64,000 nt of DNA, taken from Opitutaceae bacterium TAV5. Lineage in GTDB: Bacteria > Verrucomicrobiota > Verrucomicrobiia > Opitutales > Opitutaceae. The notes beneath the pieces are model-generated. The model was not told the origin of the DNA and did not search any database. It worked only from the letters and a program-made list of their open reading frames with translations. This document shows positions 23,660 through 58,673 of this stretch, piece by piece (positions within the stretch are counted from its first letter, which is position 1; each line of letters starts with the position of its first letter). The position numbers were made by a program, and so were the translations under genes. The stretch is from the NCBI GenBank assembly GCA_000242935.3, contig CP007053.1:1674001-1738000 (forward strand), in the 5' to 3' direction.

Positions 23660-23675
23660 GAGCACGACCATCGTA

Positions 23676-25993: not shown

Positions 25994-26334
25994 GGGCGGT
26001 TTGTATGAGGTGATTTCCGCGCCTCCGTCCAAATGTCAGTCGCCGGGGAAACAGGTTAATCGGGGAGGCTGGAGTCAGGAGCTCAATTTGCCTGCAAGAA
26101 CACAGGTAACAACACGAATGGATTTACGTTCCGAAACAAAACTTTGATTTTAATAACATGCGGCGATAGTCCGTTCATTCTCCTTCGCCATGCTTTCCGG
26201 TTGTTACGACCACCCGGTCCAAATGGACGGGGCCAGATCATTGCAGGGTGATTTCAAGGAAAACCGCATGGGGTAGGAAAACGCATGGGGTCAGAATCAA
26301 CAAATTCATTATCATACTGTTACATTTCCAGCGG
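25994..26334. other. Intergenic region upstream of the PEP-CTERM gene
   Basis: It should contain the promoter of the leftward PEP-CTERM/pilin pair, but no clear box is visible. From about 26279 the short words catggggtcagaa and aaattcattat begin; the second also precedes repeat copy 3 at 28331. No gene was found. Confidence 0.4.
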
Positions 26335-40015: not shown

Positions 40016-40134
40016 GCCCCCACGCTCCACCGCCCCCGGCCCCCCGCGCAAGCTCCCTGTTTCCGCCAAACCCGGTATAAATGACAGGTTTCACCGGTTG
40101 CCGGATGCGGACGCGGAAACGCCATTCTTGTGCC

Positions 40135-43100
40135 ATGCCCGCACCCATGAACTCCTCTCCGACCCCCGCCTCGCCTTTTTCCGGACCAAAATCCTGCGCC
40201 GGCCGGCCGGCGGGAAATACCTTCCCCGGTCTCCTCCCGTGCCTGCCCCGGCTGGCCGCCGGGCTCCTGCTCGCCATCTCCGCCTCTGCCTCCGGCGACG
40301 TGATCCACTGGACAGGCGGCGACGGCACGTGGGACACCACGGAGCTGGCCTGGACCCCCGACCCCGCCCTCTCCCCGCCCTTCCAGACATGGAGCAACCC
40401 GGCCTTCGACACCGCCGTGTTTTCCGGCCCGGCCGGCACGGTCACGCTCGGCGAAGCCATCTCCGCAGGATCGCTCACGTTCGCCACCGATGGCTACACG
40501 ATCACGGGCAACACGCTCACGCTCGCCGGTATCGGCTCCGTCGATACCGGTGACGGCACGCAGACCCTGGCCTCCATCCTCGCCGGAGCCGCCACCAGCT
40601 TCACGAAAACCGGCTCGGGCACCCTCATCCTCACCGCTGCCAATACCTGGACCGGCGCCACCCTCGTCAACGGAGGTACTCTCGCCGTGAGCGGCAGCGG
40701 AGCCTCCATCGGCGTGGCGGGCGCGTCGGCCTCGACCCTGAGCGTCGGCTCGACGGCCGACAGCTCGCTCACCATCGAGAACGGCGCGGTGGTCCAAAAC
40801 ACCACCGCCACGCTCGGCGGCGCCTCCGGCACGACCGGCAGCGTCACCGTCGATGGCGCGGGCTCCGCCTGGAACATCACCCATACGAGCGGCACCACCC
40901 TGTCCATCGCCTCCGGCGGCAGCGGCTCCCTCACCGTCTCCAACGGCGGCGCGGTCACGCTCGCCCGCCCTGCCGTGTTCGCACCGGCGGCGGGCCGGAC
41001 GGCGGACTTTCTCGTGACCGGCGCCAGCTCCACCTTCACGACGACCAGCACCCTGAATTTCGGCAACGGCGCCGCCGCGGGCGCGACGACGGCCACCATC
41101 AGCGCCGGCGGAAAAGTGAACAGCAGTTCCGGCAACATCGGCGCCAGCAGCGGGCTCGGCACCGCCAACGTCACCATCACCGGCGCGGGATCGAGCTGGA
41201 CCACCACGAACGTGGTCGCCGTGGATGGCACCGGATCGCTCTCGATCCTGGACGGCGGCACGATGACCGTCGGCAACCTGTTCGGCATCGGCGGCAACAC
41301 GGGCACGACCAGCCGGGTGACCGTCGGCGGCGATTCCGCCACCCTCAACGTCACCAGCGCCGCGATCGTCGTCGGTGATTCCGGGCGCGGCACCCTCGAA
41401 ATCAACGACGGCGGCACGGTCAACGCCGGTTTCACTCTCCGCATTGGCAACGACGACGCCGCAGTGGGCATCGTGAATCAAAACGGCGGCACGGTCACGG
41501 TCACGCGCTACATCCACTTCTTCAAGGGCACGGCGGAATATCATCTGCTCGGCGGCACGCTTGTCGTCGGCGACGCCTTCGGCGCGGGCATCGTCACGCC
41601 CTCGGCGGCCAGCTACCTCTTCGAACTCGGCGGCGGCACGCTGCAGGTGCTCGGCAACAACCGGAGCAGCCTCACCGTCTATGCCGATATCACCTTGAAG
41701 GCCGGCACGACCAGCACGCTCTCCACCCCTGGCGGCGCCGGCCAGATCATGTACATGGAGGGTGTGATCCGCGGCCCGGGCGGTCTGATCAAAACCGGCC
41801 CGGGGGCGCTCTATCTCGACGGGATAAACTCCTTTACCGGCGGCCTCACCATCGCGGAGGGCATCGTCAATCCCCTGCCCGGCAGCCTCGGCGCCGGCTC
41901 CCTCGGTTTTTCGGGCAACTCCACCCTGCAAATCGACTATACGGACACCGCCTTTGCCGGCAACGTTGCCATCGACCCGGGCGTCACCGGCACAATCGAG
42001 GTCGCCAACGGACGCACCCTCACGCTTTCAGGCGCCATCACCGGCTCCGGCGCCCTTCGCAAGACCTCCTCCGGCACCCTTGCCCTTGCCGGCGTCAACG
42101 ACTTCACCGGCGGCCTCACCGTCAGCGGCGGCGTGCTCCGCTTCTCCGGTCTCGCCAGCCTCGGTTCCGGCCCGCTCACGCTCTCCGGCGGCGAACTGCG
42201 CTGGGACGCCAACAATACCGCCGACGTTACCGCCGGCGGCCGCGTGCTCGCCATCGGTTCCGGCGGTTCCACCTTCAATACCAACGGCAACGACGTCACC
42301 CTTTCCGGCGACATCACCGGTACCGGAGCCTTCGCCAAATCCGGCGCCGGCACCCTCACCCTCTCCGGCAACAACACCTGGGCCGGAGCCACCACGACCC
42401 TCAATGCCGGCACGCTCGTCCTCGCCAGCGCCGCCGCGCTTCCCTCCACCGGAACGCTCGTCCTCAATGGCGGCACGCTGACCAGCACCACCGCGCGCAC
42501 CCTCGGCAACACCGTCACCCTCTCCGCCAATTCCACCCTCGGCGGCGCAGCGGACCTCACCTTCAACGGCAACCTCACGAACTCCGGCGGCAACCGGACC
42601 CTGACCATCAACAACGCAGGCCTGACCACGTTCGGCACGATCAACCTCTCGGAGAACAACACCGGACGCACGCTCACGCTTGCCGGCACGGGCGACATCC
42701 TCGTCACTGGCGCGATCCGAAACCGGGACGGCGCCAATACGACCGCCAGCAATCTCGTGAAATCCGGCGCCGGCACGCTCACCCTCTCCGGCGCGAACAC
42801 CTGGACCGGCTCCACCTCCGTCAACGCCGGCACGCTCCTCGTCAACGGCTCCCTCGCCAGCACCGCCGTGACCGTCGCCGACGGCGCCACCCTCGGCGGC
42901 AGCGGCAGTATCGGCGGTTTGACTACGATCCGGTCCGGCGCGCACCTCGCCCCCGGCAACAGCCCCGGCACGCTCACCTTCACCGCCGGCCTCGCTCTCC
43001 AGTCCGGCGCGATCCTCGACTTCGAGCTCGGCGACGACCGCGACCTGATTCGCATCTCCGGCGGCATCCTCTCCGGCCCCGGCAGCGGCACAATCACCCT

Positions 43101-43380
43101 CAACCTCGCCGACGCCGGCGGACTCATCGCGGGCACCTGGACCCTCTTCGATTTTTCCGGCGCCACTCTCGCCGATTTCGATGTCTCCGGTTTCGTCTTC
43201 GGCAGCACCCCCGCCGGATACGACTATGCCCTCGCCCTCAGTGGCAGCGCCCTCCGGCTCACCGTCACCGCCATCCCCGAGCCCGCCGCCGTCGCCGCCC
43301 TCCTCGCCACCGCCACGCTTGCCCTCGCCGTCGTGCGTCGCCGCAAGAGTCACCTGCCCCAGGCTCGGGTCGGGGCCTAG
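40135..43380 (+). CDS. Large PEP-CTERM autotransporter-repeat protein
   Basis: A 1081-residue secreted protein made mostly of autotransporter-associated beta-strand repeats (KTGSGTLILTAANTWTGATL, KSGAGTLTLSGNNTWAGATT, KSGAGTLTLSGANTWTGSTS) and GGTxxVGN-type units in the first half. It ends with AIPEPAAVAALLATATLALA plus RRRKSHL, a PEP-CTERM exosortase signal. It probably forms a long beta-helix on the surface. The start is uncertain: ATG at 40081, 40135 and 40147 are in frame, and 40135 gives the shortest basic leader before the hydrophobic segment LPRLAAGLLLAISASASG. It overlaps the convergent SDR gene by 4 bases at the stop codons. Confidence 0.85.
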   Translation: MPAPMNSSPTPASPFSGPKSCAGRPAGNTFPGLLPCLPRLAAGLLLAISASASGDVIHWTGGDGTWDTTELAWTPDPALSPPFQTWSNPAFDTAVFSGPAGTVTLGEAISAGSLTFATDGYTITGNTLTLAGIGSVDTGDGTQTLASILAGAATSFTKTGSGTLILTAANTWTGATLVNGGTLAVSGSGASIGVAGASASTLSVGSTADSSLTIENGAVVQNTTATLGGASGTTGSVTVDGAGSAWNITHTSGTTLSIASGGSGSLTVSNGGAVTLARPAVFAPAAGRTADFLVTGASSTFTTTSTLNFGNGAAAGATTATISAGGKVNSSSGNIGASSGLGTANVTITGAGSSWTTTNVVAVDGTGSLSILDGGTMTVGNLFGIGGNTGTTSRVTVGGDSATLNVTSAAIVVGDSGRGTLEINDGGTVNAGFTLRIGNDDAAVGIVNQNGGTVTVTRYIHFFKGTAEYHLLGGTLVVGDAFGAGIVTPSAASYLFELGGGTLQVLGNNRSSLTVYADITLKAGTTSTLSTPGGAGQIMYMEGVIRGPGGLIKTGPGALYLDGINSFTGGLTIAEGIVNPLPGSLGAGSLGFSGNSTLQIDYTDTAFAGNVAIDPGVTGTIEVANGRTLTLSGAITGSGALRKTSSGTLALAGVNDFTGGLTVSGGVLRFSGLASLGSGPLTLSGGELRWDANNTADVTAGGRVLAIGSGGSTFNTNGNDVTLSGDITGTGAFAKSGAGTLTLSGNNTWAGATTTLNAGTLVLASAAALPSTGTLVLNGGTLTSTTARTLGNTVTLSANSTLGGAADLTFNGNLTNSGGNRTLTINNAGLTTFGTINLSENNTGRTLTLAGTGDILVTGAIRNRDGANTTASNLVKSGAGTLTLSGANTWTGSTSVNAGTLLVNGSLASTAVTVADGATLGGSGSIGGLTTIRSGAHLAPGNSPGTLTFTAGLALQSGAILDFELGDDRDLIRISGGILSGPGSGTITLNLADAGGLIAGTWTLFDFSGATLADFDVSGFVFGSTPAGYDYALALSGSALRLTVTAIPEPAAVAALLATATLALAVVRRRKSHLPQARVGA

Positions 43381-47253: not shown

Positions 47254-48906
47254 ATGTTTCCCCTGTGCTTTCGCTGTTTCTTCCTGCTGCCGCTTGCCGG
47301 CTGCTTCGCGCCTCACGCGGTTTCTGCGGCTGAAGTCATGCCCTGGCGCTCCTCGCTTTATCCGGATGACTGGACGCCGGCGTGGCGCGATGCGGAGGGG
47401 CGGTTTCTCCACGATTTTTCCTACGCCGGCTATCGCCACGGCGAGGCCCCGTTGCCGGAACGAACGGACAACATCATCGACGCGACGCAGCCTCCGTATG
47501 AGGCGGATGCCTCCGGGGTGAACGATGCCACGGCGGCGATCCAGGCTGCGCTCGACGCGGCGGGGCGAAACGGCGGCGGCGGCGTGGTGTTCCTGCCGGC
47601 GGGCACGTACCGCGTGGCCCCGCCGGAAGGGGCCACGGCGGCGCTGCGCATCCGGGATTCGCATGTGATGCTGCGCGGAGCAGGCGCGGGGCGGACGTTC
47701 GTTTTCAACGACACGACGGCGATGCGCGGCAAGCGCGTCATCGAAGTGGCACCGCGCACGGCGGCGTCGTGGGCGGCGGAGGGGAAGGTGGTGGCGGGCG
47801 CGCCGCTCACGGCCGACCTGCCGGAGCCGTCGCTGCGTGTGCCGGTGGCGGATGTGTCGGGGTTCGCGGTCGGCGAGCCGGTCGTCGTGCGCAACGACCT
47901 GACGGAGCATTTTATCGGGCTGGTGGAGATGGACGGCCGCCACGGCGGGAAATGGACGCCGGCGCAATCGCCCAACCGCACGCTGGCGTATTACCGGCGT
48001 ATTCTGGAGATAAATACGGAGGCGGGCGCGCTCGTGCTGGACGTGCCGGTGCGCGGATGGCTGTTCACGGCGGACAATGCCCGCGTTGTGCGAGTGTCCG
48101 ACGCGATGCTGACGGAGGTCGGGGTGGAGGATCTTTCCATCGGCATGCGGCAGCATCCGGGCGAAGGGCTTGCGGAGAACGACTGGCAGAGGGAGGGCAC
48201 GGTCGGTTACGACGCGCACGGATCGGTGGCGTTGCAGGTTTCGTTTGTCGGGAACGGGTGGATACGCCGCGTAAATTCGTGGTCGCCGCCGGGCAACGAT
48301 CCGTCGGTGCACGTGCTTTCCAACGGGATCAGGCTGTGGCGTTCGCGACTGGTAACGGTGGCGGAGTGCGACTGGCGTTTCCCGCAATACCGGGGCGGCG
48401 GCGGCAACGGCTACCTCTACACGCACAACGGGCAGGACAACCTGATCCGCGACTGCCGGGCAGAGGGAGCGCGGCACAATTACGATTTCGGGACGATGAT
48501 CGCCAGCGGCAACGTGATCCTGGACTGCGTGGCGAAGGACGGGGAACTGGCGTCGGATTTCCACATGTTTCTCTCGCTCGCCAACCTGCTCGACAACGTG
48601 ACGTGCGACGGCGATTCGCTGGAGGCGCGGGCGTTCCGGCCGTGGGGCGGGAATCCGGTGCACGGGGTGACGACGACGCAGTCGGTTTTCTGGCGGAGCA
48701 ACGGGCTGCGTTATCCGCCGAAGCGGCCGATGCTGGTGCAGTCGCACCAGGTGGGCGAAGGTTACGTGATCGGCACGCGCGGCCCGGCGGCGCGGGTGGA
48801 TTCGAGCGATTTTGTGGAGGGCGAGGGAAAGGGCGACGGGCTCACGCCCCGCTCGCTTTACCTCGACCAGCTGGGCAGGCGGCTGAAGGACCGAGCCGGG
48901 CGATAA
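47254..48906 (+). CDS. Secreted pectate-lyase-fold (right-handed beta-helix) protein
   Basis: A 550-residue secreted protein with a signal peptide (CFRCFFLLPLAGCFAPHAVSA) followed by a Pectate_lyase_3-type start (ASGVNDATAAIQAALDAAGR, NGGGGVVFLPAGTYRV) and a parallel beta-helix (LRIRDSHVMLRGAGAGRTFV, NGYLYTHNGQDNLIRDCRAE). It probably binds or cleaves a polysaccharide. Catalytic residues could not be assigned. A LacI-operator-like palindrome lies in its promoter region, linking it to the cassettes downstream. Confidence 0.8.
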   Translation: MFPLCFRCFFLLPLAGCFAPHAVSAAEVMPWRSSLYPDDWTPAWRDAEGRFLHDFSYAGYRHGEAPLPERTDNIIDATQPPYEADASGVNDATAAIQAALDAAGRNGGGGVVFLPAGTYRVAPPEGATAALRIRDSHVMLRGAGAGRTFVFNDTTAMRGKRVIEVAPRTAASWAAEGKVVAGAPLTADLPEPSLRVPVADVSGFAVGEPVVVRNDLTEHFIGLVEMDGRHGGKWTPAQSPNRTLAYYRRILEINTEAGALVLDVPVRGWLFTADNARVVRVSDAMLTEVGVEDLSIGMRQHPGEGLAENDWQREGTVGYDAHGSVALQVSFVGNGWIRRVNSWSPPGNDPSVHVLSNGIRLWRSRLVTVAECDWRFPQYRGGGGNGYLYTHNGQDNLIRDCRAEGARHNYDFGTMIASGNVILDCVAKDGELASDFHMFLSLANLLDNVTCDGDSLEARAFRPWGGNPVHGVTTTQSVFWRSNGLRYPPKRPMLVQSHQVGEGYVIGTRGPAARVDSSDFVEGEGKGDGLTPRSLYLDQLGRRLKDRAGR

Positions 48907-48938: not shown

Positions 48939-49256
48939 TTATGTCCAGTGTCGCGTTTGTTCACGAAGCAGGCGCTCCCTGATTTTCGCGGGATTCTGGC
49001 GGCAGTCCAGAATCGCATGGACGAGAACGGTATTGTCCTCGATCGTGTAATAAATGGCGTAGGGGAAACGTCGTGAAAGCATCCAGTGGAACCCGCCAAA
49101 CTTCTTCGGATGAATTCCCGCGTGGTGTTCGAGTGTATCAACGTCCGCGTAGAGCGAATCCAGAAAATACTGCCCCACTCCGCATTCCTGTTTTTCGTAA
49201 AAGGCAAACCCGTCCAGAAGATCGAATCGGGCGTTGTCGAAGATGCGGATTTTCAC
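48939..49256 (-). CDS. RelE/ParE-type toxin
   Basis: A 105-residue toxin-like protein beginning at GTG 49256 (VKIRIFDNARFDLLDGFAFY) and containing FGGFHWMLSRRFPYAIYYTI and VHAILDCRQNP, the pattern of RelE/ParE toxins. The longer frame to 49295 runs through the antitoxin. GTG overlaps the antitoxin stop by 4 bases, so the antitoxin is first in the operon and coupled to the toxin. Target (ribosome-dependent mRNA cleavage or gyrase) not resolvable. Confidence 0.85.
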   Translation of the reverse strand: MKIRIFDNARFDLLDGFAFYEKQECGVGQYFLDSLYADVDTLEHHAGIHPKKFGGFHWMLSRRFPYAIYYTIEDNTVLVHAILDCRQNPAKIRERLLREQTRHWT

Positions 49257-49471
49257 GCAACACGGGCCTTGATTTGTCGTTTGGCCGTCTCCCAATCCGT
49301 GAAGCCAACCTCGCCCGACTGGGCCAGTCGCCTGCGTTCTTCAAGGATTTGACCGTGCCAGTCCGGCGGAGAATATTCCCGCTCTGTTTTGGAAATATCC
49401 GCCCAAATCTCCTCCATGGCATTGATCTTCTCGGGAAGGGTCATTTCCGCCAATGGCAGTGTGAGTTTCAT
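49253..49471 (-). CDS. Antitoxin, addiction-module component (TIGR02574-like)
   Basis: A 72-residue protein: MKLTLPLAEMTLPEKINAME, EEIWADISKTEREYSPPDWH and WETAKRQIKAR fit the small helical antitoxin family paired with RelE/ParE toxins. It directly precedes and overlaps the toxin gene. Confidence 0.85.
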   Translation of the reverse strand: MKLTLPLAEMTLPEKINAMEEIWADISKTEREYSPPDWHGQILEERRRLAQSGEVGFTDWETAKRQIKARVA

Positions 49472-49528: not shown

Positions 49529-50551
49529 TCAGCCTTTATTTTTGAGCGTCTTGCCCGGATGCCACACGCCTTCCACGAGTGTGCGGATGGGGGTTTCGGG
49601 GATGCCGCGTTCGTTGCGGTGCACCATGTCGACGAGGAGGTCGACAGCCTTGCGGCCGATAAGATGATCGTTCTGGTGGATGCCCGAAGTGGTGTCATCG
49701 GCTTCGCCGACGTTGAGGCTGGCGAAACCGACATCTTCGGGCACGCGCAGTCCGGTAGCCCGGAGATGCCTGAGGTTGCCGGTATAGGAAATGACAACGT
49801 CGGGCCGGTAGCTGCGGACCCATTCCCGGATACCGAGCTCCTCCTCGCTGTTGACCACGAGCGGGAGGCAGGCGAGCGAGGGATGCAGCCAGCGGGAGAG
49901 GAGCATGCCGCTGACCCAGTTGTGGCCGACTTTCTCATCCCAGTTGCGGTCGACGTACATGCCGGGGCGGCGGTAGCCGAGCTGCCAGAGTTCTTCGAGG
50001 AGGAGGTTGATGGAGTGCGCGTGGTGGTTGGCCACGACGTGCATGCGGGGAGGATGCAGGCTGTAACCGAGCGAGAGGGCGGAAAACCCGGTGTAGTCGA
50101 AATCGAGCCACATGCGGGAGCGCGGCTGGGGGGCGAGAAGGAGGGCCTGGATGCCGCGTGCGCGCAGGATGCGGCGGGTCTTTTCCGGAGTCATGTCGCG
50201 TTCGTGCAGCCAGAATTCCTCGATGAGGTAACCGAGTTCGGCAGCGCGTTCGTGGGCGCCGCTGCGGTATTTGCGGAATTCGGGGATATCCAGCATCCTG
50301 TCGCGTTCGGGCCAGTTGTTGAGCCACGCGATGGTGGCCTGGTAGTGCGGACGGCGGCTGGTGTGACGGTAGGCATGCAGGGCGGCGAGCATGGGGTCGG
50401 GACGGTAACCCATGTCGGCGGCGAGAGCCTGCAGCCGCTGGCGGGTGCGAAGGTTGAGCCGCGGGCTGTCGCGCAGGGCGAGGGCGACCGTCGTGAAATG
50501 CACGCCGGCCCGGGCGGCAATGTCCCGGATGGTGACGCGGGTCGTGGACAT
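49529..50551 (-). CDS. LacI-family regulator, cassette copy A
   Basis: A 340-residue regulator. N-terminal HTH TIRDIAARAGVHFTTVALAL with hinge helix RQRLQALAADMGYRPDPM; periplasmic-binding-like effector domain (IEEFWLHERDMTPEKTRRIL, GYRRPGMYVDRNWDEKVGHN, ASLNVGEADDTTSGIHQNDH). It closely resembles the regulator of copy B throughout, including HRNERGIPETPIRTLVEGVW. Start at 50551; the frame to 50668 belongs to the PEP gene. It is downstream of the PEP-CTERM and deacetylase genes on the same strand, suggesting autoregulation through the palindrome at 53300. Confidence 0.92.
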   Translation of the reverse strand: MSTTRVTIRDIAARAGVHFTTVALALRDSPRLNLRTRQRLQALAADMGYRPDPMLAALHAYRHTSRRPHYQATIAWLNNWPERDRMLDIPEFRKYRSGAHERAAELGYLIEEFWLHERDMTPEKTRRILRARGIQALLLAPQPRSRMWLDFDYTGFSALSLGYSLHPPRMHVVANHHAHSINLLLEELWQLGYRRPGMYVDRNWDEKVGHNWVSGMLLSRWLHPSLACLPLVVNSEEELGIREWVRSYRPDVVISYTGNLRHLRATGLRVPEDVGFASLNVGEADDTTSGIHQNDHLIGRKAVDLLVDMVHRNERGIPETPIRTLVEGVWHPGKTLKNKG

Positions 50552-50664
50552 GGGGCTGGTGGCAACGACTCCAGCCGGACGCCTGCGCGGTGGCAATGCC
50601 GGAAGCGGTTCCGGCACGATGTCGCCCCGGTCTGTTGCCGGGGCGGATTCAGGATGGCGGAAAC

Positions 50665-51735
50665 TCATGCGGAACGGCGGCGGCAGACGCGGCGGCGGAG
50701 AAGCGCGCCGGCGAGCAGCATGGCCGCTCCGGCGAACGCGGCGGTGGCGCCGGGTTCGGGGACGGCGGCAAACGAGAGTGCGCCGGTGGCGGTATCGTAG
50801 CTCCAGTTGCCGGCCGTGTAGTGGTTGGAACTGTCGAGCGTGATGCCGCTGCCGACCACCGAGCCGGTGAGGGACAGGGAGAAGCCGCTTCCGTAAACGA
50901 GGTCGCCGAAGGTGCCGGCGACGAGAGTCCAGGCGGTGTCGCCGGTGAACGGAACGTCGCCGACGGCGACGTTGAAGACGCCGTCAAACCGCACGTCGCC
51001 GGTGGTGTTACCGGTGACCTGGTTGCCCTTGGCGAGGTCGAAGAGGAGGGAGCCGGTGCCGGCGAGCGTGAAGTTGCCGCTGGTGAGCGTGGTGCCGCCG
51101 GTGTAGGTGTTGGCATTGGCCAGCGTGAGCGTGCCGGTGCCGGCATGGGTGACGGCGGTGAAATTGGCGCCGTTGTTTCTGATGGTGCCGTTCGTTCCGT
51201 TGATGTTGATATCGCCTGCTCCGGTGAAGTTCAGGGTGCCTGTGCTGCTCGTGGTGATCTGGGTCTGGATATTCAGCGATGCGCCACTACCCACGATGAT
51301 GTTGTTGGTAGCTTGTGAAAAACGTATGAATCCGAATGCCTGGTTTGTGCCGATCAAGGTGAGGCTTTTGGTGGCGTTTGCCATGTCGATGCCATCGGCA
51401 CCGATGGTATGCGTTGAGTTGTTGCTGATCGTAATGCGGATGTCGTTGGCAGGGTTTTCCAGACGGAGGCCGCGTGCGGTTCTATTACCGGAGGTCCAGG
51501 TGAACGTCGAGTTCGTCTGAAGCGTATCGTCGAAAACGAGCACGTCACTGCTGGTACCAGTAATGACAGCAGTGCCATCCGTCCAGGCTCCGGCGGCACC
51601 GAGATCGGTGGTGTTGTCGGCCTTGACAAGTTCTGCGGCGGACGAAGTTACCGCAGGGACGAACAGGAGCGCCGCACCGAGCAGGATCGGCGAGAACGCA
51701 CGGATGGCGGGGTGGCTGGAGGTTTTGGTTTTCAT
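50665..51735 (-). CDS. PEP-CTERM beta-strand protein, cassette copy A
   Basis: A 356-residue secreted protein with signal peptide (FSPILLGAALLFVPAVTSSA), a short autotransporter-repeat-like middle (ANANTYTGGTTLTSGNFTLA, GTGSLLFDLAKGNQVTGNTT), and the sorting signal AVPEPGATAAFAGAAMLLAG followed by LLRRRVCRRR. Its C-terminal half is very similar to that of copy B (TAGNWSYDTATGALSFAAVP vs TAGNWSYDISSGALSYAAVP). It probably forms part of a surface or matrix structure. Confidence 0.85.
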   Translation of the reverse strand: MKTKTSSHPAIRAFSPILLGAALLFVPAVTSSAAELVKADNTTDLGAAGAWTDGTAVITGTSSDVLVFDDTLQTNSTFTWTSGNRTARGLRLENPANDIRITISNNSTHTIGADGIDMANATKSLTLIGTNQAFGFIRFSQATNNIIVGSGASLNIQTQITTSSTGTLNFTGAGDININGTNGTIRNNGANFTAVTHAGTGTLTLANANTYTGGTTLTSGNFTLAGTGSLLFDLAKGNQVTGNTTGDVRFDGVFNVAVGDVPFTGDTAWTLVAGTFGDLVYGSGFSLSLTGSVVGSGITLDSSNHYTAGNWSYDTATGALSFAAVPEPGATAAFAGAAMLLAGALLRRRVCRRRSA

Positions 51736-51823
51736 GATTGTTGGATGCTTGAGGTCTGGATTTTGTTTTTTGCGTTTCGACTCTGGTTGTGTATCGGGAA
51801 AACGGTTGCAGATATCGGGGGAA

Positions 51824-53251
51824 TCACTTGCCGCCGACCTGCCGGGCGGGTTTGCCGCCGAGGCTTTGGGCGTATTCGAGCGGGGTCATGAAGACGGCGT
51901 TTTGTTCGACGAGGAAATCGATGATCTTTTCGAACTCCCTGAAGCGTTCGCCGGCCCAGTGGGTGGGATGGCCTTGCAGGACAAAATACTCGCGGTCGGG
52001 GTTCTTGGCGTAGCCGACGACGAGCCGGTTGAAAGCGGGCTGGCCGACGGCAGCTTCAAGGTTCACGGCCCAGACGCGGTCAAGGATGGTGACCTTGCCG
52101 GCGGCGGCGAGGTCACGTCCGGAAGCGTCGACGGGCGAGGGATAGAGCCAGACTTTCATGTCGGGATCCTTGGCCATGACCTGCGCGGTAACCCCGTCCT
52201 GGGAACCGGTACCGACGCCGCCGCCGGGACCGAAAGCGGCGAAGGGGAAGCCGAGTTTTTCCTTCGCCAGCGTTTGCGAGCGTTCGAAGCGGGACCACTG
52301 TTCGTCAAAGGGCCGTCCCTTGAATTCGTTCCATTTCTTTCCGGCGTCGTCGGTCCATACCTGGTGGTCCCAGCCATGGAACCAGAACTCGATGAGGCCG
52401 GAGTCGCGGCGCTCCCTGATCCAGCCGGTGTATTCGGGCGTGGCCTCGGCGAGGGTTTCGCAGATGATGCCGATGGAGGATTTGATGGAGCGGTTTTTCA
52501 GGTAATCGGCGACGCGAGTCCAGGAGTGATGGACCTTGCCGTTGGTCTGACGGAGATCGTCGAGCTTGAGGATGATGACGGGCGGGGCCTTGCGCGGGGG
52601 GATTTCGGCGGGCGGCGCCTCGGCGGCCCGGCGGGCATTGTAGCGGGCGATGGCCGAAGACGAGGCGGCTTTCATGGCCTCGACGGTTTCGAGCGGAGCG
52701 GTGCCGGGAGGAATCCCTTCGAGCACAAAGTCGTCAAAGTCGACCACACCGGTGGCCGAGCTCCACGAGTGGATCCAGACGGAGACGGCCGTGGCGCCGG
52801 GCGGCACGGTGGTGGTGAGGGTGTAGGGGTGCCAGCCGTCGTCCTGCTTTTTGACAAGAACGCTGGCGAGGCCGTCGCCTTTTTTCCCGGGGATGCGAAC
52901 GGGTTTGCCGGCTTCGTTGGTGGGCCAGAAGCAGACGACGAGAAAGTTGCCGTCGGCCCTGGCCTGGAAGGTGAGAGTGAGTTCCTGGCCGGGGGTGACA
53001 GGGTAGCGGCTGCTGTGGAAATCGGAGCCGTTGACGGTATCGTTGTCGGCGATACGGAGGCCGAGTTTGCCGGTGCGGGCGGCTTCGGGAAGGGCCGACG
53101 CCATGGTGTCCCGGGGCAACCAGCCGTCGAGGCCGTCTTCGAAACCGGGGTTGGCGGGGATCGGGCCGGCCGCGAAAGCAGGCAAGGCTGCCGCGACGGC
53201 GGCGAGCGCGAACAGGGTTTTATGGGAAAACGCGCGGAGTGCGGGGTGCAT
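51824..53251 (-). CDS. Secreted polysaccharide-deacetylase-like enzyme, cassette copy A
   Basis: A 475-residue secreted protein. Signal peptide 1-27, then a jelly-roll carbohydrate-binding domain (PANPGFEDGLDGWLPRDTMA), then a NodB-like domain: LKLDDLRQ supplies the Asp pair, FWFHGWDHQVW the H-xxx-H metal site, and FAAFGPGGGVG the arginine-loop region. Such enzymes remove acetyl groups from chitin, peptidoglycan or xylan. It has the same length as copy B and agrees with it at most positions. It is divergent from the copy A pilin across the palindrome at 53300. Confidence 0.85.
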   Translation of the reverse strand: MHPALRAFSHKTLFALAAVAAALPAFAAGPIPANPGFEDGLDGWLPRDTMASALPEAARTGKLGLRIADNDTVNGSDFHSSRYPVTPGQELTLTFQARADGNFLVVCFWPTNEAGKPVRIPGKKGDGLASVLVKKQDDGWHPYTLTTTVPPGATAVSVWIHSWSSATGVVDFDDFVLEGIPPGTAPLETVEAMKAASSSAIARYNARRAAEAPPAEIPPRKAPPVIILKLDDLRQTNGKVHHSWTRVADYLKNRSIKSSIGIICETLAEATPEYTGWIRERRDSGLIEFWFHGWDHQVWTDDAGKKWNEFKGRPFDEQWSRFERSQTLAKEKLGFPFAAFGPGGGVGTGSQDGVTAQVMAKDPDMKVWLYPSPVDASGRDLAAAGKVTILDRVWAVNLEAAVGQPAFNRLVVGYAKNPDREYFVLQGHPTHWAGERFREFEKIIDFLVEQNAVFMTPLEYAQSLGGKPARQVGGK

Positions 53252-53299
53252 GGCAACAACCTGCGATGAAGGGAGGCGAGCGGCGAGTCCGTCGAAATA

Positions 53300-53309
53300 C
53301 TACATGTAG
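53300..53309. promoter_or_regulatory. Candidate LacI operator between divergent cassette A genes
   Basis: CTACATGTAG, a perfect 10-base palindrome, centred about 53 bases from both the deacetylase ATG (53251) and the pilin ATG (53358). A further half-site (CTTGTAG) follows at 53322. Inferred to bind the LacI regulators of these cassettes. Confidence 0.55.
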
Positions 53310-53357
53310 AAAAACGGACTGCTTGTAGGTGATGCGGCGATACGCGAGAGTGGCAGC

Positions 53358-54065
53358 ATGAAACCCGCACCCCGTCTTTCTGTCCCGATTCCCGTCCGCC
53401 GTGCGCGCGGCTTCACGCTGGTCGAGTTGCTGACCGTGATCGTCATCATCGGCGTGCTGGCCGCGATCATCATCCCGGTCGCGGGCAAGGTCCGGCGTTC
53501 GGCCCGCGCGGTCGAGTGTGTATCGAATCTCCGCTACACGCTTGCCGCGTTCAATCTCTACGCGGCGGACAACAACGGCTACTTCCCGGCGGTGGCGAAA
53601 CCGTCCGGCAGCTCCACCTTCAATTTCGGTTCGCAGCTCATGAACAGGGAAGGCGCGTGGCAGGTTGAAATCAGCCCTTACTGGAGCCGGAAACTTTCGG
53701 GCAACATCCAGGCCGAAAGAAATGATCAGGAGCGGTACGCCTTCTGCCCGGATTTTGTGGTGACGGACGAAAATGTCGTCACGCGCGGCCACGGCATGAA
53801 CGACATTCTCACCGCGCAGGGGCAGGTGAATGCGGTGGACAACAAGATGTCGAATCCCGCCTACCATTGCCGGACAAAGGCTCTGGGCATCACCGATCCG
53901 TCGAGGACGATTCTCGTGGGCGACAGCGACAAGCTCCTGTTCAGCCCGGCCGAGGTCAACGCCCGTCACAACAACCGGCTCAATTGCGGGTTTGTCGACG
54001 GGCACGTCACGGCCTTGACGTGGGTCGAGGCGAAGGCTGTCCGGGATGCCGTGAAAAACCGGTAG
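53358..54065 (+). CDS. Pseudopilin, cassette copy A (inverted)
   Basis: A 235-residue protein with prepilin signal RGFTLVELLTVIVIIGVLAA after a basic leader, and HNNRLNCGFVDGHV near the C-terminus, an exact H-X9-DG spacing. The middle (SNLRYTLAAFNLYAADNNGY) is typical of verrucomicrobial and planctomycetal type II-like pseudopilins. It is on the plus strand, opposite to its cassette partners, and ends 20 bases from the LacI stop of copy B. Inversion around the shared operator would explain the arrangement. Confidence 0.85.
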   Translation: MKPAPRLSVPIPVRRARGFTLVELLTVIVIIGVLAAIIIPVAGKVRRSARAVECVSNLRYTLAAFNLYAADNNGYFPAVAKPSGSSTFNFGSQLMNREGAWQVEISPYWSRKLSGNIQAERNDQERYAFCPDFVVTDENVVTRGHGMNDILTAQGQVNAVDNKMSNPAYHCRTKALGITDPSRTILVGDSDKLLFSPAEVNARHNNRLNCGFVDGHVTALTWVEAKAVRDAVKNR

Positions 54066-54085
54066 GCCCGGCCAAAACCGGATCG

Positions 54086-55225
54086 TCAATCCGCGCGCCG
54101 GGGTTTCGGAGCATTCGGGGAGAGGCGGGCAGAGGGTGATCCGCCCCGTGAGGGATTCCGGTTTGCGTGAGTTGCCGTTTGTCGGCCCGCGGGCGACGCT
54201 CCCGGCTTGCGCAGCGTTTTGCCCGGACACCAGACGCCTTCGACGAGGGTGCGCACGGGGATTTCGGGGATGCCGCGTTCGTTGCGGTGCACCATGTCCA
54301 CGAGCAGGTCGATGGCCTTGCGTCCGATGAACCGGTCGTTCTGCCGGATGCCGGAGATATGGGTATCGGTTTCCCCGACGTTGAGGCTGGCAAAGCCGAT
54401 GTCTTCGGGGATGCGCAGCCCGGTGCCCTGAAGGTAAACGAAGTTGTTGCTGAAGGTGATGACGACGTCGGGACGGTGCTTTTTTATCCAGGCGGCCATC
54501 GCGGAGGTGTTTCTCCCGGCGTTGTCGATGACGAGCGGGAGGCGCGCCAGCGTGGGGTGCAGCCAGCGCGAAAGCATCATGCCGCTGATCCAGTTGTAAC
54601 CGACTTTTTCGTCCCAGTTGCGACTTATGTACATGCCGGGGCGGCGGTAGCCGAGTGACCAGAGTTTTTCGAGGAGGAGGTTGACGGAATGCGCCTGGTG
54701 ATTGGTCACAACGTGAAGGAGCGGGGGCTGAAGGGTGTATCCGAAGGCGATGGCGGAAAAGTCGGTGTAGTCGAATTCCAGCCACGTGCGGGGTCGCGGC
54801 TGGGGGGCGACCAGAAGGGCCTGGATGCCGCGGGCGCGGAGAATGGCGCGGAGTTTGGCGGGGGAAGTCGCCGGATCGTGCGTCCAGAATTCCTCGACGA
54901 GGTAACCGAGTTCGGCGGCACGTTCCTCGGCGCCGCGCCGGTATTCATGGAATTCGGGGATTTTGAGCAGGTCGTCGCGTTGGGGCCAGTTGTTGATCCA
55001 GGCGATGGTGGCCTGGTAATGGGGGTTGCGCCGGGTGCGTTTGTGGGCCTGGAGGGCGGAGAGCATGGGGTCGGGGCGGTAACCCATGTCGCGGGCGAGT
55101 TTCTTGATGCGGGCGCGGGTGTCGATATTGAGCTGGGGGCTGTCGCGCAGGGCAAGGGACACGGTAGTGAAGTGGAGTCCGGCGCGGGCGGCGATGTCGC
55201 GGATGGTGATGCGCGTGGAGGCCAT
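54086..55225 (-). CDS. LacI-family regulator, cassette copy B
   Basis: A 379-residue regulator with HTH TIRDIAARAGLHFTTVSLAL and IKKLARDMGYRPDPM, and the same effector-domain blocks as copy A (SLGYRRPGMYISRNWDEKVG, ASLNVGETDTHISGIRQNDR). A basic tail of about 35 residues (GASPAGRQTATHANRNPSRG) extends past the end of copy A. It is the last gene of a leftward four-gene operon and probably represses it. Confidence 0.92.
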   Translation of the reverse strand: MASTRITIRDIAARAGLHFTTVSLALRDSPQLNIDTRARIKKLARDMGYRPDPMLSALQAHKRTRRNPHYQATIAWINNWPQRDDLLKIPEFHEYRRGAEERAAELGYLVEEFWTHDPATSPAKLRAILRARGIQALLVAPQPRPRTWLEFDYTDFSAIAFGYTLQPPLLHVVTNHQAHSVNLLLEKLWSLGYRRPGMYISRNWDEKVGYNWISGMMLSRWLHPTLARLPLVIDNAGRNTSAMAAWIKKHRPDVVITFSNNFVYLQGTGLRIPEDIGFASLNVGETDTHISGIRQNDRFIGRKAIDLLVDMVHRNERGIPEIPVRTLVEGVWCPGKTLRKPGASPAGRQTATHANRNPSRGGSPSARLSPNAPKPRRAD

Positions 55226-55349
55226 GATGGGTCGGAAGGTCGGAGACGAGTCCGCCCGAACGCGGATGCTTCGGCAATGCCCGAGTCGGCTCCGGCATGA
55301 TGGTTTTCCCGGCATGCTGACGATCCGGGTCTGCCCGGGAAGACGGGGA

Positions 55350-56396
55350 CTACCGGGAATAGCGGCCAGGCCGATGGCGCAGAAGCGCGACGGCAAGCAG
55401 CATGCCCGCGGCGGCCAGCGCGGCGGTGATTCCCGGTTCAGGGACGGCCGCATACGAGAGCGCGCCGGAGGAGATGTCGTAACTCCAGTTGCCGGCAGTA
55501 TAGTTGTTGGTGCTGTCCAGCGTGATGCCACTGCCAACAATGCTACCGCCGAGGAAAAGGGAGAAGGTGCTCCCGTAATCGAGGTTACTGAAGGTGCCGG
55601 CAACGAGCGTCCAGGCGGTGTCTTCGGTCAACGCGATATCGCTGACGGAGACGTTGAAGGTGCCATCGAAGCGCACTTCTCCGGTGGAGTCGCCGGTGAT
55701 CCGGTTGCCTTTCGCAAGGTCGAAGAAGAGAGAGCCCGTACCGGCGAGCGTGAAGTTGCCACCGGAGAGCGTGGTGCCACCGGTGTAGGTATTGGCTCCG
55801 GTCAGGGTGAGGGAGCCGGTGTCGTCGTGGATGAGCCGGGTTGTCCGGATAGAATCGCTGTCCCGGACAGTAGCCAGGATGACGGCTCCGGCACCGGTTA
55901 CCCGGAGACTTCCACCATTTGTATGATACACCTCGACCGGTGCGTTGACGGTGAGGGTGCGACCGGCTGCAACGGTGAGGGTCGATTGGGCTCCGTAGAA
56001 GCGGAGCCGGCCCGATGAAGCGACATTGATCGTCAGATTGCGGACAGCCGAGGAAAGGTCGATGAAACCGCCATCGGTGGCAGAGCCGTTGACTCCGAGT
56101 GAAAGGGTGGAGTTGCCGACCGAGAGGGTGATGTCATTGGCCGGGTCCAGAAGGCGCAGCCCTCGCGCGGTGGTACCGCCCGAATTGAATGAGGAGACAG
56201 AGCTGAGGGTGTCGTTGAAGATGATGGTATCGGCGTTGGTCGGTGTGGCGCCGGCAACGGTGTAACTGCCGGCCGTACCGAGTGCAGTCGTGTTGTTGGC
56301 CTTGATGAGGTCGGCGGCAGGCAAGTTCGCCGCAGACGCAAACACGACGGCAGCAAATGCGATGGCATGGAGGAGGATGGACGGTTGGTGTTTCAT
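55350..56396 (-). CDS. PEP-CTERM beta-strand protein, cassette copy B
   Basis: A 348-residue secreted protein with signal peptide (LLHAIAFAAVVFASAANLPA), repeat-like section (GANTYTGGTTLSGGNFTLAG), and sorting signal AVPEPGITAALAAAGMLLAV plus LLRHRPGRYSR. Paralogous to the protein at 50665; the N-terminal half has diverged more than the C-terminal half. Confidence 0.85.
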   Translation of the reverse strand: MKHQPSILLHAIAFAAVVFASAANLPAADLIKANNTTALGTAGSYTVAGATPTNADTIIFNDTLSSVSSFNSGGTTARGLRLLDPANDITLSVGNSTLSLGVNGSATDGGFIDLSSAVRNLTINVASSGRLRFYGAQSTLTVAAGRTLTVNAPVEVYHTNGGSLRVTGAGAVILATVRDSDSIRTTRLIHDDTGSLTLTGANTYTGGTTLSGGNFTLAGTGSLFFDLAKGNRITGDSTGEVRFDGTFNVSVSDIALTEDTAWTLVAGTFSNLDYGSTFSLFLGGSIVGSGITLDSTNNYTAGNWSYDISSGALSYAAVPEPGITAALAAAGMLLAVALLRHRPGRYSR

Positions 56397-56440
56397 GATG
56401 TGGATGTTATTTCCGGATGGTGTGTGTATCCATAACGGGA

Positions 56441-57868
56441 TTACTTTCCTCCGCTGACTTGCCGGGCGGGTTTGCCGCCGAGGCTTTGGGCGTATTCGAG
56501 CGGGGTCATGAAGACGGCCTTTTGTTCGACGAGGAAATCGATGATCTTTTCGAACTCCTTGAACCGGTCGCCGCCCCAGTGGGTGGGATGGCCCTGCAAT
56601 ACGAAATACTCGCGGTCGGGATTTTTGGCGTAGCCGGCGAGGAAGCGGTTGTAGTGGGGCTGACCGACAGCGCCTTCGAGGTTCACGGCCCAGACACGGT
56701 CGAGGACGGTGATCTTGCCGGCGGCGGCGATTTCGCGGCCCATGGCATCGATGGGCGAGGGATAGAGCCAGACTTTCATGTCGGGGTCTTCCGTCATGGC
56801 GCGGGCGGTGGCGGCATCCTGATGTCCGCCGCTGCCTCCGCCGCCGGGACCGAATGTGGTGAAGGCAAAACCGAGCTTTTCCCTGGCGAGCTCCTGGCTG
56901 CGGGCGAAGCGACGGAGTTGTTCGTCAAAGGGGCGGCCGGAAAACTCGCTGCGTTTCTTGCCGGCGTCGTCGGTCCACACCTTGTGGTCCCAGCCGTGAA
57001 ACCAGAATTCGATGAGGCCGGAGTCGCGGCGTGCCTTGATCCAGCCGGCGTATTCGGGCGTGGCCTCGGCGAGGGTTTCGGCGATGATGCCGATGGAGGA
57101 TTTGATGTCGCGGGCCTTGAGGTAGTCGGCCACGCGTGTCCAGGAGGCGTGCACCTTGCCGCCGGTCTGGCGGAGATCGTCGAGCTTGAGGAGGATGACG
57201 GGCGGGGTCTTGCGCGGGGGGATTTCGGCGGGCGGGGCATCGGCGGCGGCGCGGGCGGCGGCCCTGGCAATGGCCGCCCCGGAGGCGGCCTTCATGGCTT
57301 CGGGCGTGTCGAGCGGAGCGGTGCCGGGAGGGATGCCTTCGATGTTGAAATCGTCGAAGTCGGCGACGCCGGTGCTGCCGCTCCAGGAATGGACCCAGAT
57401 GGAAACGGCGGCGGCGCCCTCCGGCAGGGTGGCGGTGAGCGTGTAGGGCTTCCAGCCCCCGTCGCCTTTTTTCACAAAAACCTTGGGGAGGCCGTCACCC
57501 CGGATCGCGGGATCGCGCACGGGCCGTCCGGCGTCGTTGGTCGGCCAGAAATAGACGGCCAGAAAATCGGCGTCGGCGCGGGCCTGGAAAGTGAGCGTGA
57601 GCTGCTGGCCCGGTTGCACGGGATAACGGCTGCTGAACAGCGAAGAGCCGTTGATGGTGTCGTTGTCAGTGACACGCAGACCGAGTTTTCCGGAAAAGGC
57701 GGCTTCGGGAACCACCTGCGACATGGTTTCGTTGGGGCGCCAGGCGTGAAGTCCCTCCTCGAAACCGGGATTGGCGGGGATGGGGGCCTCTTCGGCCGCT
57801 GCCGCGAAGGACGCGGCAACGGCCAGGGCGAATGCGGGGAGAAGCAGCAGAGAGGGGAGGGTTTTCAT
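56441..57868 (-). CDS. Secreted polysaccharide-deacetylase-like enzyme, cassette copy B
   Basis: A 475-residue paralogue of the enzyme at 51824 with the same domains: signal peptide (LPSLLLLPAFALAVAASFAA), PANPGFEEGLHAWRPNETMS binding domain, LKLDDLRQ, FWFHGWDHKVW and FGPGGGGSG. The catalytic-site residues are preserved in both copies. It starts 8 bases after the pilin stop and precedes the PEP-CTERM gene by 44 bases, so the operon order is pilin, deacetylase, PEP-CTERM, LacI. Confidence 0.85.
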   Translation of the reverse strand: MKTLPSLLLLPAFALAVAASFAAAAEEAPIPANPGFEEGLHAWRPNETMSQVVPEAAFSGKLGLRVTDNDTINGSSLFSSRYPVQPGQQLTLTFQARADADFLAVYFWPTNDAGRPVRDPAIRGDGLPKVFVKKGDGGWKPYTLTATLPEGAAAVSIWVHSWSGSTGVADFDDFNIEGIPPGTAPLDTPEAMKAASGAAIARAAARAAADAPPAEIPPRKTPPVILLKLDDLRQTGGKVHASWTRVADYLKARDIKSSIGIIAETLAEATPEYAGWIKARRDSGLIEFWFHGWDHKVWTDDAGKKRSEFSGRPFDEQLRRFARSQELAREKLGFAFTTFGPGGGGSGGHQDAATARAMTEDPDMKVWLYPSPIDAMGREIAAAGKITVLDRVWAVNLEGAVGQPHYNRFLAGYAKNPDREYFVLQGHPTHWGGDRFKEFEKIIDFLVEQKAVFMTPLEYAQSLGGKPARQVSGGK

Positions 57869-57876
57869 TGTCCGGA

Positions 57877-58611
57877 TTATTTGCCGGCCTTGACGATCCT
57901 GAGTGCGTCGTCGAGGGAGAGGAGGCGGACGTGGCCGTCAACGAACAGGTAATTGGCTTTGCCGCTGTGGCGCACGGGGTCGCCGGAGGTGTAGCGGCCG
58001 GTTTCGGCATTCGGGGTCATGTTGGCCCAGATGCCGTGGTGGTATTCGTCGGAGTCGGCGAGGAGGATGGTGTGGGAGGGGTTTTTGATTTCGCCGGTTT
58101 TGACGCGCCAGGAGCCGTTCTTGATGGCGCCGGAGCCGGAATCGTCGCGGTTGGAGAGGTCTCCGTTCATGCCGGTGAATTCGCCGATGGCGCAGATGAC
58201 GAAGGTGGGGTTGGGGTTGCTGGTGCCGGTCCTGCCGCCAGTAGCATCTACCACGTCGATGGCGGTGTAGGGCTTGATTTCCTTTGTCCAGCGTCCGCCG
58301 AGGGGGTTGACGCGGGGATCGCCGGCGGCGTCCGTGTTGTAGCCCGCCGCCGGGTAAAAGTCGCGGTTTTCGGCGGCGTAGAGGGGAAAGGCGGTGCTGA
58401 TGTTGCGGAGGTTGGCGGCGCAACGCGCCTGCCGCGCCGTGGCGCGGACGCGGTTGGCGGCGGGGAGAAGAAGGGCGGCGAGAATGCCGATGATGACGAT
58501 CACCGCCAGCAGTTCGACGAGCGTAAACCCTCCCCGGCTGTGCGGGCGCGGTTTGCGCCACCGGGAACCGGGGGCAAAGGTGGAAGATATCTGTCCGGGC
58601 ATGGGGTGCAT
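57877..58611 (-). CDS. Pseudopilin, cassette copy B
   Basis: A 244-residue protein with prepilin signal GGFTLVELLAVIVIIGILAA after a long basic leader and HSGKANYLFVDGHV at the C-terminus (H-X9-DG). Start at ATG 58611 or 58602. It is the first gene of the copy B operon, with a 16-base palindrome centred 54 bases upstream. Confidence 0.85.
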   Translation of the reverse strand: MHPMPGQISSTFAPGSRWRKPRPHSRGGFTLVELLAVIVIIGILAALLLPAANRVRATARQARCAANLRNISTAFPLYAAENRDFYPAAGYNTDAAGDPRVNPLGGRWTKEIKPYTAIDVVDATGGRTGTSNPNPTFVICAIGEFTGMNGDLSNRDDSGSGAIKNGSWRVKTGEIKNPSHTILLADSDEYHHGIWANMTPNAETGRYTSGDPVRHSGKANYLFVDGHVRLLSLDDALRIVKAGK

Positions 58612-58657
58612 GGGCGCGAAAAAGCGCGATCGGTGGTGAAAGGGCAACGATGCTGAA

Positions 58658-58673
58658 TCTCTACTTGTAGAGA
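58658..58673. promoter_or_regulatory. Candidate LacI operator of cassette B
   Basis: TCTCTACTTGTAGAGA: seven-base arms around TT. The core CTACTTGTAG matches the CTACNNGTAG pattern of the palindrome at 53300, at the same distance from the pilin start. Confidence 0.6.

Follow-up and report, generated by a model that had tools for sequence, protein, structure and literature searches.

A predicted LacI-controlled cassette of deacetylase, PEP-CTERM and prepilin-like genes in two copies in Opitutaceae bacterium TAV5

In the Sus-type polysaccharide utilisation loci of Bacteroidota, a regulator, surface proteins and carbohydrate enzymes stand together in one inducible locus. Here we analyzed a 64,000-nucleotide (nt) stretch of the chromosome of Opitutaceae bacterium TAV5 (contig CP007053.1, positions 1,674,001 to 1,738,000; hereafter the window, in whose own numbering positions are given unless stated otherwise). 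Two adjacent blocks of genes in it, copy A and copy B, each encode a LacI-family regulator, a PEP-CTERM protein, a deacetylase with CBM16-like and CE4-like parts (DUF2334) and a prepilin-like protein of the H-X9-DG type. TAV5 originates from the termite Reticulitermes flavipes, and its genome consists of a chromosome and a plasmid (PMC4358385); the chromosome measures 7,317,842 bp and the full genome 7,417,673 bp.

Several described systems touch on parts of this gene set. For Verruconatronum alginivorum (Opitutales), excerpts of a 2026 report list 17 genes that are over-expressed on alginate, one of them encoding a pseudopilin; the alginate cluster contains pgaptmp_000050, a pulG-like pseudopilin gene of which the genome has 67 homologues (PMC13274419). 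Pili-like fibres of Planctomycetes bind dextran according to passages of one study (PMC5394234), pilin “fishing rods” are proposed in part of a review (PMC12078418), and the PEP-CTERM/exosortase system is linked to exopolysaccharide in excerpts of its description (PMC1569441). Among the open-licence PMC papers listed, no title or abstract opening described cassettes of LacI, PEP-CTERM and pilin genes.

We consider it probable that the two blocks represent, in duplicate, a cassette for polysaccharide processing that is inducible by sugar and has dedicated surface proteins. The sequence analysis establishes the gene set, a predicted operator at near-fixed distance from the pilin genes, conservation in relatives and a predicted esterase fold.

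Gene blocks and candidate operator

The earlier note on this DNA had described two adjacent four-family blocks, and both are present where it placed them. Copy A consists of lacA (49529..50551, minus strand), pepA (50665..51735, minus), dacA (51824..53251, minus) and the divergent pilA (53358..54065, plus). Copy B, made up of lacB (54086..55225), pepB (55350..56396), dacB (56441..57868) and pilB (57877..58611), lies wholly on the minus strand in the order pilin, deacetylase, PEP-CTERM, lacI; pilB leads the unit and is separated from dacB by 8 nt.

A candidate operator, CTACNNGTAG, precedes dacA, pilA and pilB by 48-49 nt. In copy A it stands between the divergent arms, as had been claimed: operator A (CTACATGTAG, 53300-53309, no strand assigned) is 48 nt from the start of dacA and 48 nt from that of pilA. 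The same operator recurs before copy B (operator B, CTACTTGTAG, 58661-58670, no strand assigned), 49 nt upstream of the ATG chosen as the pilB start. Within the window CTACNTGTAG gave three strand matches (two sites) vs 0.04 expected from shuffles, and across the 7.4 Mb of the genome CTACNNGTAG occurs at eight sites vs 246 for the backwards control. The word is thus about 30 times rarer than its control in TAV5, which perhaps reflects merely a scarcity of CTA/TAG-rich words.

Operators A and B account for two of the eight sites. The third (1098438-1098447 in TAV5 coordinates; L158:6439) precedes by 49 nt the isolated gene of an H-X9-DG prepilin at 1098569, which has no LacI gene within 4 kb (the nearest, among the matches listed, being near 1104122) and is possibly a trans member of the LacA/LacB regulon. 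Two of the remaining five were inspected (2900457 and 6236160) and lie at gene ends.

Counting the relatives described below, the distance from the site to the best-fitting start was 48-50 nt at all ten pilin genes with a close upstream site (including two that start with GTG), 47-48 nt at three deacetylase genes (dacA and those of G041 and Rariglobus) and 48 nt at one PEP-CTERM gene, where start codons were picked among several candidates and spacing is therefore biased toward constancy. At LacI genes it was 12 or 63 nt and 9 or 96 nt, depending on the start.

The site also follows the type of regulator. LacA and LacB both matched the helix-turn-helix (PF00356) and the periplasmic-binding-like (PF13377) domains, and their helices read HFTTVALALRDS and HFTTVSLALRDS respectively. 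Across loci, CTACNNGTAG was present in the locus of 12 of the 14 LacI rows with an HFTTV-LAL helix and of none of the nine with other helices (HYSTV, HYSSV, DISTV, HISTV, HRTTV, HYTTV and HFTTVARAL; Fisher p=7e-5, with rows that are related and in some cases come from the same locus). One TAV5 regulator, TAV5_3066641, was left out of this table; its helix is HFTTA and it has no CTACNNGTAG near. In a broader comparison of gene pairs, exact palindromes with 5-nt arms were common to 5 of 91 pairs within a locus vs 3 of 8036 between loci, a weak signal as all five came from three loci (L081, L105 and L106).

A local regulon of LacI type, in which the conserved palindrome precedes the target genes as the predicted LacI operator, is supported. 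The operator is common to enzyme and surface genes, which argues for their co-regulation, a claim that finds support in the conservation of this predicted operator among relatives.

Duplication history and protein families

The blocks had been taken for a tandem duplication with an inverted pilin, an account that stands for three of the four genes. LacA and LacB are identical at 237 of 340 amino acids (70%; 81% at the DNA level) and DacA and DacB at 347 of 461 (75%; DNA 82%), and in trees with relatives each pair is a supported sister pair (97/93 for lacA and lacB, 98/97 for dacA and dacB), so these genes are true duplicates. Their DNA identities of 81% and 82% rule out a recent duplication. 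PepA and PepB were judged by identity (182 of 318 amino acids, 57%), which is uneven: 73 of 177 (41%) in the first 194 residues and 116 of 161 (72%) thereafter, as if the outer part were diversifying. Taken together, the three genes seem to derive from an old tandem duplication.

The pilins do not fit the same history. PilA and PilB share 85 of 213 amino acids, and in the pilin tree, which also took in pilins from 9 LacI-free pilin windows (20 drawn), they fall into different lineages: pilA falls beside those of CSMAG_1313 and a second G041 cassette (97/93), and pilB beside the pilins that accompany deacetylases in Cerasicoccus and UBA4506 (98/80), with bootstrap support not fully settled in either case. 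Forcing the two together was rejected by the approximately unbiased (AU) test (p-AU 1.1e-5; 18 rows, the test being picked after the tree was known). The pilins are therefore not sisters, and pilA as a flipped copy of pilB is ruled out by tree and test; copy A holds a pilin of another lineage, divergent from dacA. By these comparisons three genes of the block were duplicated, and its pilins come from two lineages.

Both pilins carry a prepilin N-terminus (GFTLVELL) with the conserved Glu, E33 being invariant in 20 sequences, and exceeded the cut-off of TIGR02532; for TIGR04294 (cut-off 19), PilB scored above (29.7 bits) and PilA just under (17.8 bits). The H-X9-DG residues H215, D225 and G226 are invariant in the pilin alignment. 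The PilB model (pLDDT 78) shows a long helix with a small head. PepA and PepB each contain one PATR beta-strand repeat (TIGR02601, above cut-off) and end in a VPEP motif, a hydrophobic stretch and an Arg tail. Genome-wide, there were four matches to exosortases (PF09721) and seven to secretins. One exosortase lies at chromosome positions 1740568-1741320, about 2.6 kb beyond the window end, with a PEP-CTERM tail adjoining at 1741500. Within the window, a further PEP-CTERM protein of 1099 residues with five PATR stretches is encoded at 40081-43380.

CE4, or NodB-type, deacetylases possess a metal-binding Asp-His-His set and a catalytic Asp. DacA and DacB match DUF2334 (PF10096), and D231, D232, H292, H296 and H428 are invariant in an alignment of 23 sequences. 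The AlphaFold model of DacA (pLDDT 88.7) combined an N-terminus resembling CBM16 (PDB profile E=1e-9; Foldseek target-normalised TM 0.71-0.78) with a C-terminus resembling CE4 esterases (2c71, 7ax7 and 7fbw; target-normalised TM 0.68-0.71), among which 7ax7 represents a CE4 domain found in a metagenome of the termite hindgut. The row with the best Foldseek E-value was a viral turret chain with a TM of only 0.33-0.38. At the sequence level no CE4 profile matched the cassette deacetylases, which returned only DUF2334 and a sub-threshold CBM_4_9. By predicted fold the Dac proteins are putative carbohydrate esterases or deacetylases.

The cassette in relatives and the wider LacI plan

A profile search with the deacetylase yielded 42 loci in relatives, many of them on truncated contigs of metagenome-assembled genomes. 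Genes in fetched loci were called with our own script, based on GC at third codon positions and open reading frames (ORFs), and with regular expressions; all ORFs were scanned for the 42-locus annotation and for the 20-genome survey and 4.5-kb neighbour counts given below. Of the loci, 16 contained a LacI gene, 19 a pilin, 15 a PEP-CTERM gene, 12 a pectate-lyase-like (PL) gene and 15 a 2-hydroxyacid dehydrogenase gene. The earlier note had set out beforehand that absence of co-occurrence elsewhere would speak against the cassette. The families do co-occur: all four stood together in 11 of the 42 (L178-L182, L184, L205, L207, L211, L213 and L214), including L184, whose pilin and PEP-CTERM genes belong to a neighbouring LacI unit. 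The other 31 were without the full set, and in 19 loci the deacetylase family alone was called.

The exact palindrome occurred 21 times in the 716 kb of these loci, in ten of them, eight with an HFTTV LacI. The carriers comprise Opitutaceae, Cerasicoccus, UBA4506 and Spartobacteria, and the site precedes pilin, deacetylase, PEP-CTERM, PL or lacI genes. In particular, it stands before pilin, PL, PEP-CTERM and deacetylase genes in Rariglobus (L181) and G041 (L066); before the pilin and PEP-CTERM genes and the region of the deacetylase in RX2 (L178); before PL, PEP-CTERM, LacI and pilin genes in CSMAG_1313 (L207); before the pilin in C. maritimus (L179) and UBA4506 (L182); before LacI only in L184 and L185; and before a 503-residue gene upstream of the pilin in C. 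frondis (L180). In Spartobacteria LR76 (L184:971-4384), a divergent LacI / PEP-CTERM / pilin arrangement adjoins the deacetylase locus. Farther off, in Lentisphaerae (L187) and Planctomycetota (L188 and L191), a pilin gene lies directly next to that of the deacetylase with no PEP-CTERM or LacI called, and thus the link between pilin and esterase may predate the LacI plan.

As judged from these neighbourhoods, the cassette is wider than four families: it takes in the PL gene and, elsewhere, the 2-hydroxyacid dehydrogenase. The TAV5 PL gene (47254-48906, plus strand; PF12708, Pfam E=4e-11), which had been overlooked, belongs to the cassette in relatives by position and shares 57-67% of amino acids with seven cassette PLs there. 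Its product also matches mannuronan epimerases over about 70 residues. Genes for GH38, a glucuronyl-esterase-like protein and a CE2 esterase were further found beside relatives' cassettes. As a guess, the target would be an esterified, uronate-bearing plant polymer. Between the PL gene and lacA, a small ORF (48939-49295) weakly resembled ParE, at 18.5 bits below the cut-off of 23.

The TAV5 block exemplifies a plan of LacI, PEP-CTERM and pilin genes, which recurs many times in the genome with assorted carbohydrate enzymes nearby. Of this LacI subfamily TAV5 has about 140 members (best 150 of 185 candidates scored); its prepilin-like genes number at least 150 (best 150 of 287) and its PEP-CTERM tails at least 73 (best 150 of 314). 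In a proximity test on 142 LacI places (second halves of fragments excluded) and 149 pilins (the plasmid one excluded), 22 of the 149 pilins lay within 500 bp of a LacI gene vs 5.3 expected, the largest of 50 shuffles giving 10; of the LacI-pilin pairs within 1.5 kb, 36 of 44 were divergent. For PEP-CTERM genes the result was marginal: 14 of 73 (HMM matches alone) lay within 2 kb of a LacI gene vs 6.4 expected, and shuffles reached 14.

Every second LacI place (71 of 142) was then sampled, the three windows without a called LacI being kept in the denominators. Within three genes of LacI, a PEP-CTERM or pilin gene was present in 52 of 71 cases and both in 32, vs 31% and 13% respectively for a background of 77 genes; within 4.5 kb the counts were 66 and 48 of 71. 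In hand-picked windows, both partners were beside LacI in 10 of 12 and either in 11 of 12 for TAV2 (12 of 93 LacI places), and in 4 of 8 and 7 of 8 respectively for G041 (8 of 27 places), where one window (L252) is a deacetylase cassette in its own right. The proteins neighbouring LacI (93 of the 147 eligible) included heparinase II/III, pectate-lyase-like, GH39, GH113, GH10, GH42, GH36, alginate lyase, SASA esterase, MFS and ABC permease families, each with one to four members among the matches listed (best 25 of 94 families) and with no background set for comparison.

Elsewhere in the window, at 22754-26032, a PEP-CTERM (PATR) gene is followed by an H-X9-DG prepilin gene, both on the minus strand, with an AraC-type regulator adjoining on the plus strand: the pair is that of the cassettes, with a different class of regulator.

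Proposed mechanism, alternatives and known systems

In the mechanism that we propose, a LacI protein with the HFTTV helix would repress the genes through CTACNNGTAG about 48 nt ahead of them, until an oligosaccharide freed from the target polysaccharide relieved the repression. The CBM16+CE4-like enzyme, presumed secreted, would then de-esterify the glycan and the pectate-lyase-like beta-helix protein would cleave it, as their domains suggest. One of the genome's exosortases would sort the PEP-CTERM beta-strand protein, which would then be retained at the surface, and the processed prepilin would join a type II secretion or type IV pilus-like filament of shared machinery, where it might either aid enzyme export or bind the glycan chain. 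We would infer from this a surface machine for specific polysaccharides, as the earlier note had put it. A wider extension is tentative and in our view rather doubtful: that TAV5, TAV2 and their relatives hold more than 100 such LacI units, each with a substrate-specific pilin and an exosortase-sorted protein, served by one shared filament and sorting machine, as an exchangeable device for handling glycans at the surface and replacing SusCD.

Several results weigh against the reading of a LacI-controlled cassette or limit its reach. An exact site is missing from two loci with HFTTV-LAL regulators (L190 and L212), and sites are present in two, L214 and L216, with no HFTTV-LAL LacI in the locus. 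No exact CTACNNGTAG lies near the PL gene in TAV5, and the spacing varies away from the pilins: PLs have 51-60 nt, most PEP-CTERM genes 18-105 nt depending on the choice of start, and the L214 deacetylase 62 and 25 nt. A genome-wide test for palindromes at -53 before TAV5 pilin and PEP-CTERM genes was not significant, offset 53 ranking second for pilins (2.3 standard deviations) and failing to stand out for PEP-CTERM genes. At the protein level, PepA (15.2 bits) and PepB (14.3 bits) fell just under the TIGR02595 cut-off of 16, and the PilB head found no solved fold in the fold search, which gave only a 60-column pilin match at E=0.24. Moreover the background in TAV5 is dense: within 4.5 kb of 34 random positions (in 17 windows), either partner was found in 50% and both in 32%. 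Across the order, 42 other genomes gave a match, and 20 of these (three of the same family) were sampled with a single LacI window apiece; both partners stood beside LacI in 0 of 20 and either in 6 of 20, so the plan is lineage-limited. As judged from gene order, the plan is real, but it is confined to this lineage and scattered relatives.

This density of pilin, PEP-CTERM and LacI genes is what would favor a chance neighbourhood, the blocks having arisen by coincidence plus duplication; we find that very hard to credit, as the identical set with its operator recurs in other families and LacI-pilin pairs are so often divergent (36/44). Nor do we think it at all probable that CTACNNGTAG is some other fixed 5' element common by descent, such as a promoter core or an mRNA hairpin. 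Its near-constant distance from pilin start codons and its form, a perfect short inverted repeat, would suit such an element, but the word precedes non-homologous genes (pilin, esterase, PL and PEP-CTERM), tracks one LacI helix type (12/14 rows vs 0/9) and is rare, with eight genome sites.

The role of the surface proteins is harder to settle. The pilin may be a pseudopilin dedicated to export of the enzymes of its cassette via shared type II machinery, rather than a glycan-binding fibre, a reading that is quite possible although we would not call it likely. GspG is its best profile, secretins are present in the genome, pilB ends 8 nt before dacB, and the V. alginivorum authors, in excerpts of their report, suggest that its type II system might export two alginases (PMC13274419); yet the GspG scores of the two pilins (35.5 and 38.7 bits) are far below the cut-off of 88.85, and a single export filament would not need 150 or more different prepilins per genome. 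Alternatively, pilin and PEP-CTERM protein could be general surface, biofilm or attachment proteins that merely sit in a LacI locus and serve adhesion to plant fibre, not uptake or secretion. We regard this as unlikely, even though excerpts of work elsewhere tie PEP-CTERM genes and exosortases to floc and biofilm formation (PMC9850573, PMC12188702) and the pilin head has no fold match hinting at carbohydrate binding: one operator precedes enzyme and surface genes alike in relatives, and the pilin adjoins the deacetylase in several loci, including those of Planctomycetota (L188 and L191) without a PEP-CTERM call.

For the sugar-inducible cassette, which we prefer, the operator shared with relatives suggests that surface proteins are switched on together with enzymes, and thereby hints at a purpose of the pilin-like proteins. 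With an operator and regulator type named and a conserved cassette at hand, the purpose of the large pilin and PEP-CTERM families thus becomes testable. If the wider extension held, a scheme of “one sugar switch, one pilin, one PEP-CTERM” would explain these families. In a termite-gut fibre degrader, their purpose would also bear on ways of handling plant fibre other than Sus-type systems.

Set beside known systems, the TAV5 cassette resembles Sus-type loci in bringing regulator, surface proteins and carbohydrate enzymes together. It differs from them in two respects: i) it has a pilin and a PEP-CTERM protein, with no SusC or SusD match among the cassette proteins scanned (8 + 10; the remaining genome was not searched for these), and ii) LacI takes the place of SusR or hybrid two-component regulators. 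Like CE4 acetylxylan esterases (2c71, 7ax7), the Dac proteins have the fold and the conserved Asp/His positions, whereas they belong to DUF2334 in Pfam, with no CE4 family model returned, and carry an N-terminal CBM16-like module. With the PEP-CTERM/exosortase system, as described in excerpts of PMC1569441, TAV5 has in common the sorting-tail proteins and the exosortases in the genome, whereas here the genes stand beside degradation enzymes and a LacI switch. Planctomycetes fibres come close to the main idea in that pilin-type fibres would catch polysaccharide before uptake, in a member of the PVC superphylum (passages of PMC5394234 and PMC12078418); on the other hand, the terms pilin and prepilin are absent from the 2017 text, and the passages concerned draw no link to LacI or PEP-CTERM (PMC5394234). 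The alginate cluster of V. alginivorum is like the TAV5 locus in belonging to the order Opitutales and in having a pulG-like pseudopilin gene inside a polysaccharide cluster, besides the over-expressed pseudopilin encoded outside its two clusters. According to the excerpted report, however, its enzymes differ, in the main text the terms PEP-CTERM and LacI do not appear, and in the excerpts no operator is given (PMC13274419), whereas in TAV5 pilin, PEP-CTERM protein and esterase stand together with a LacI regulator and its predicted operator.

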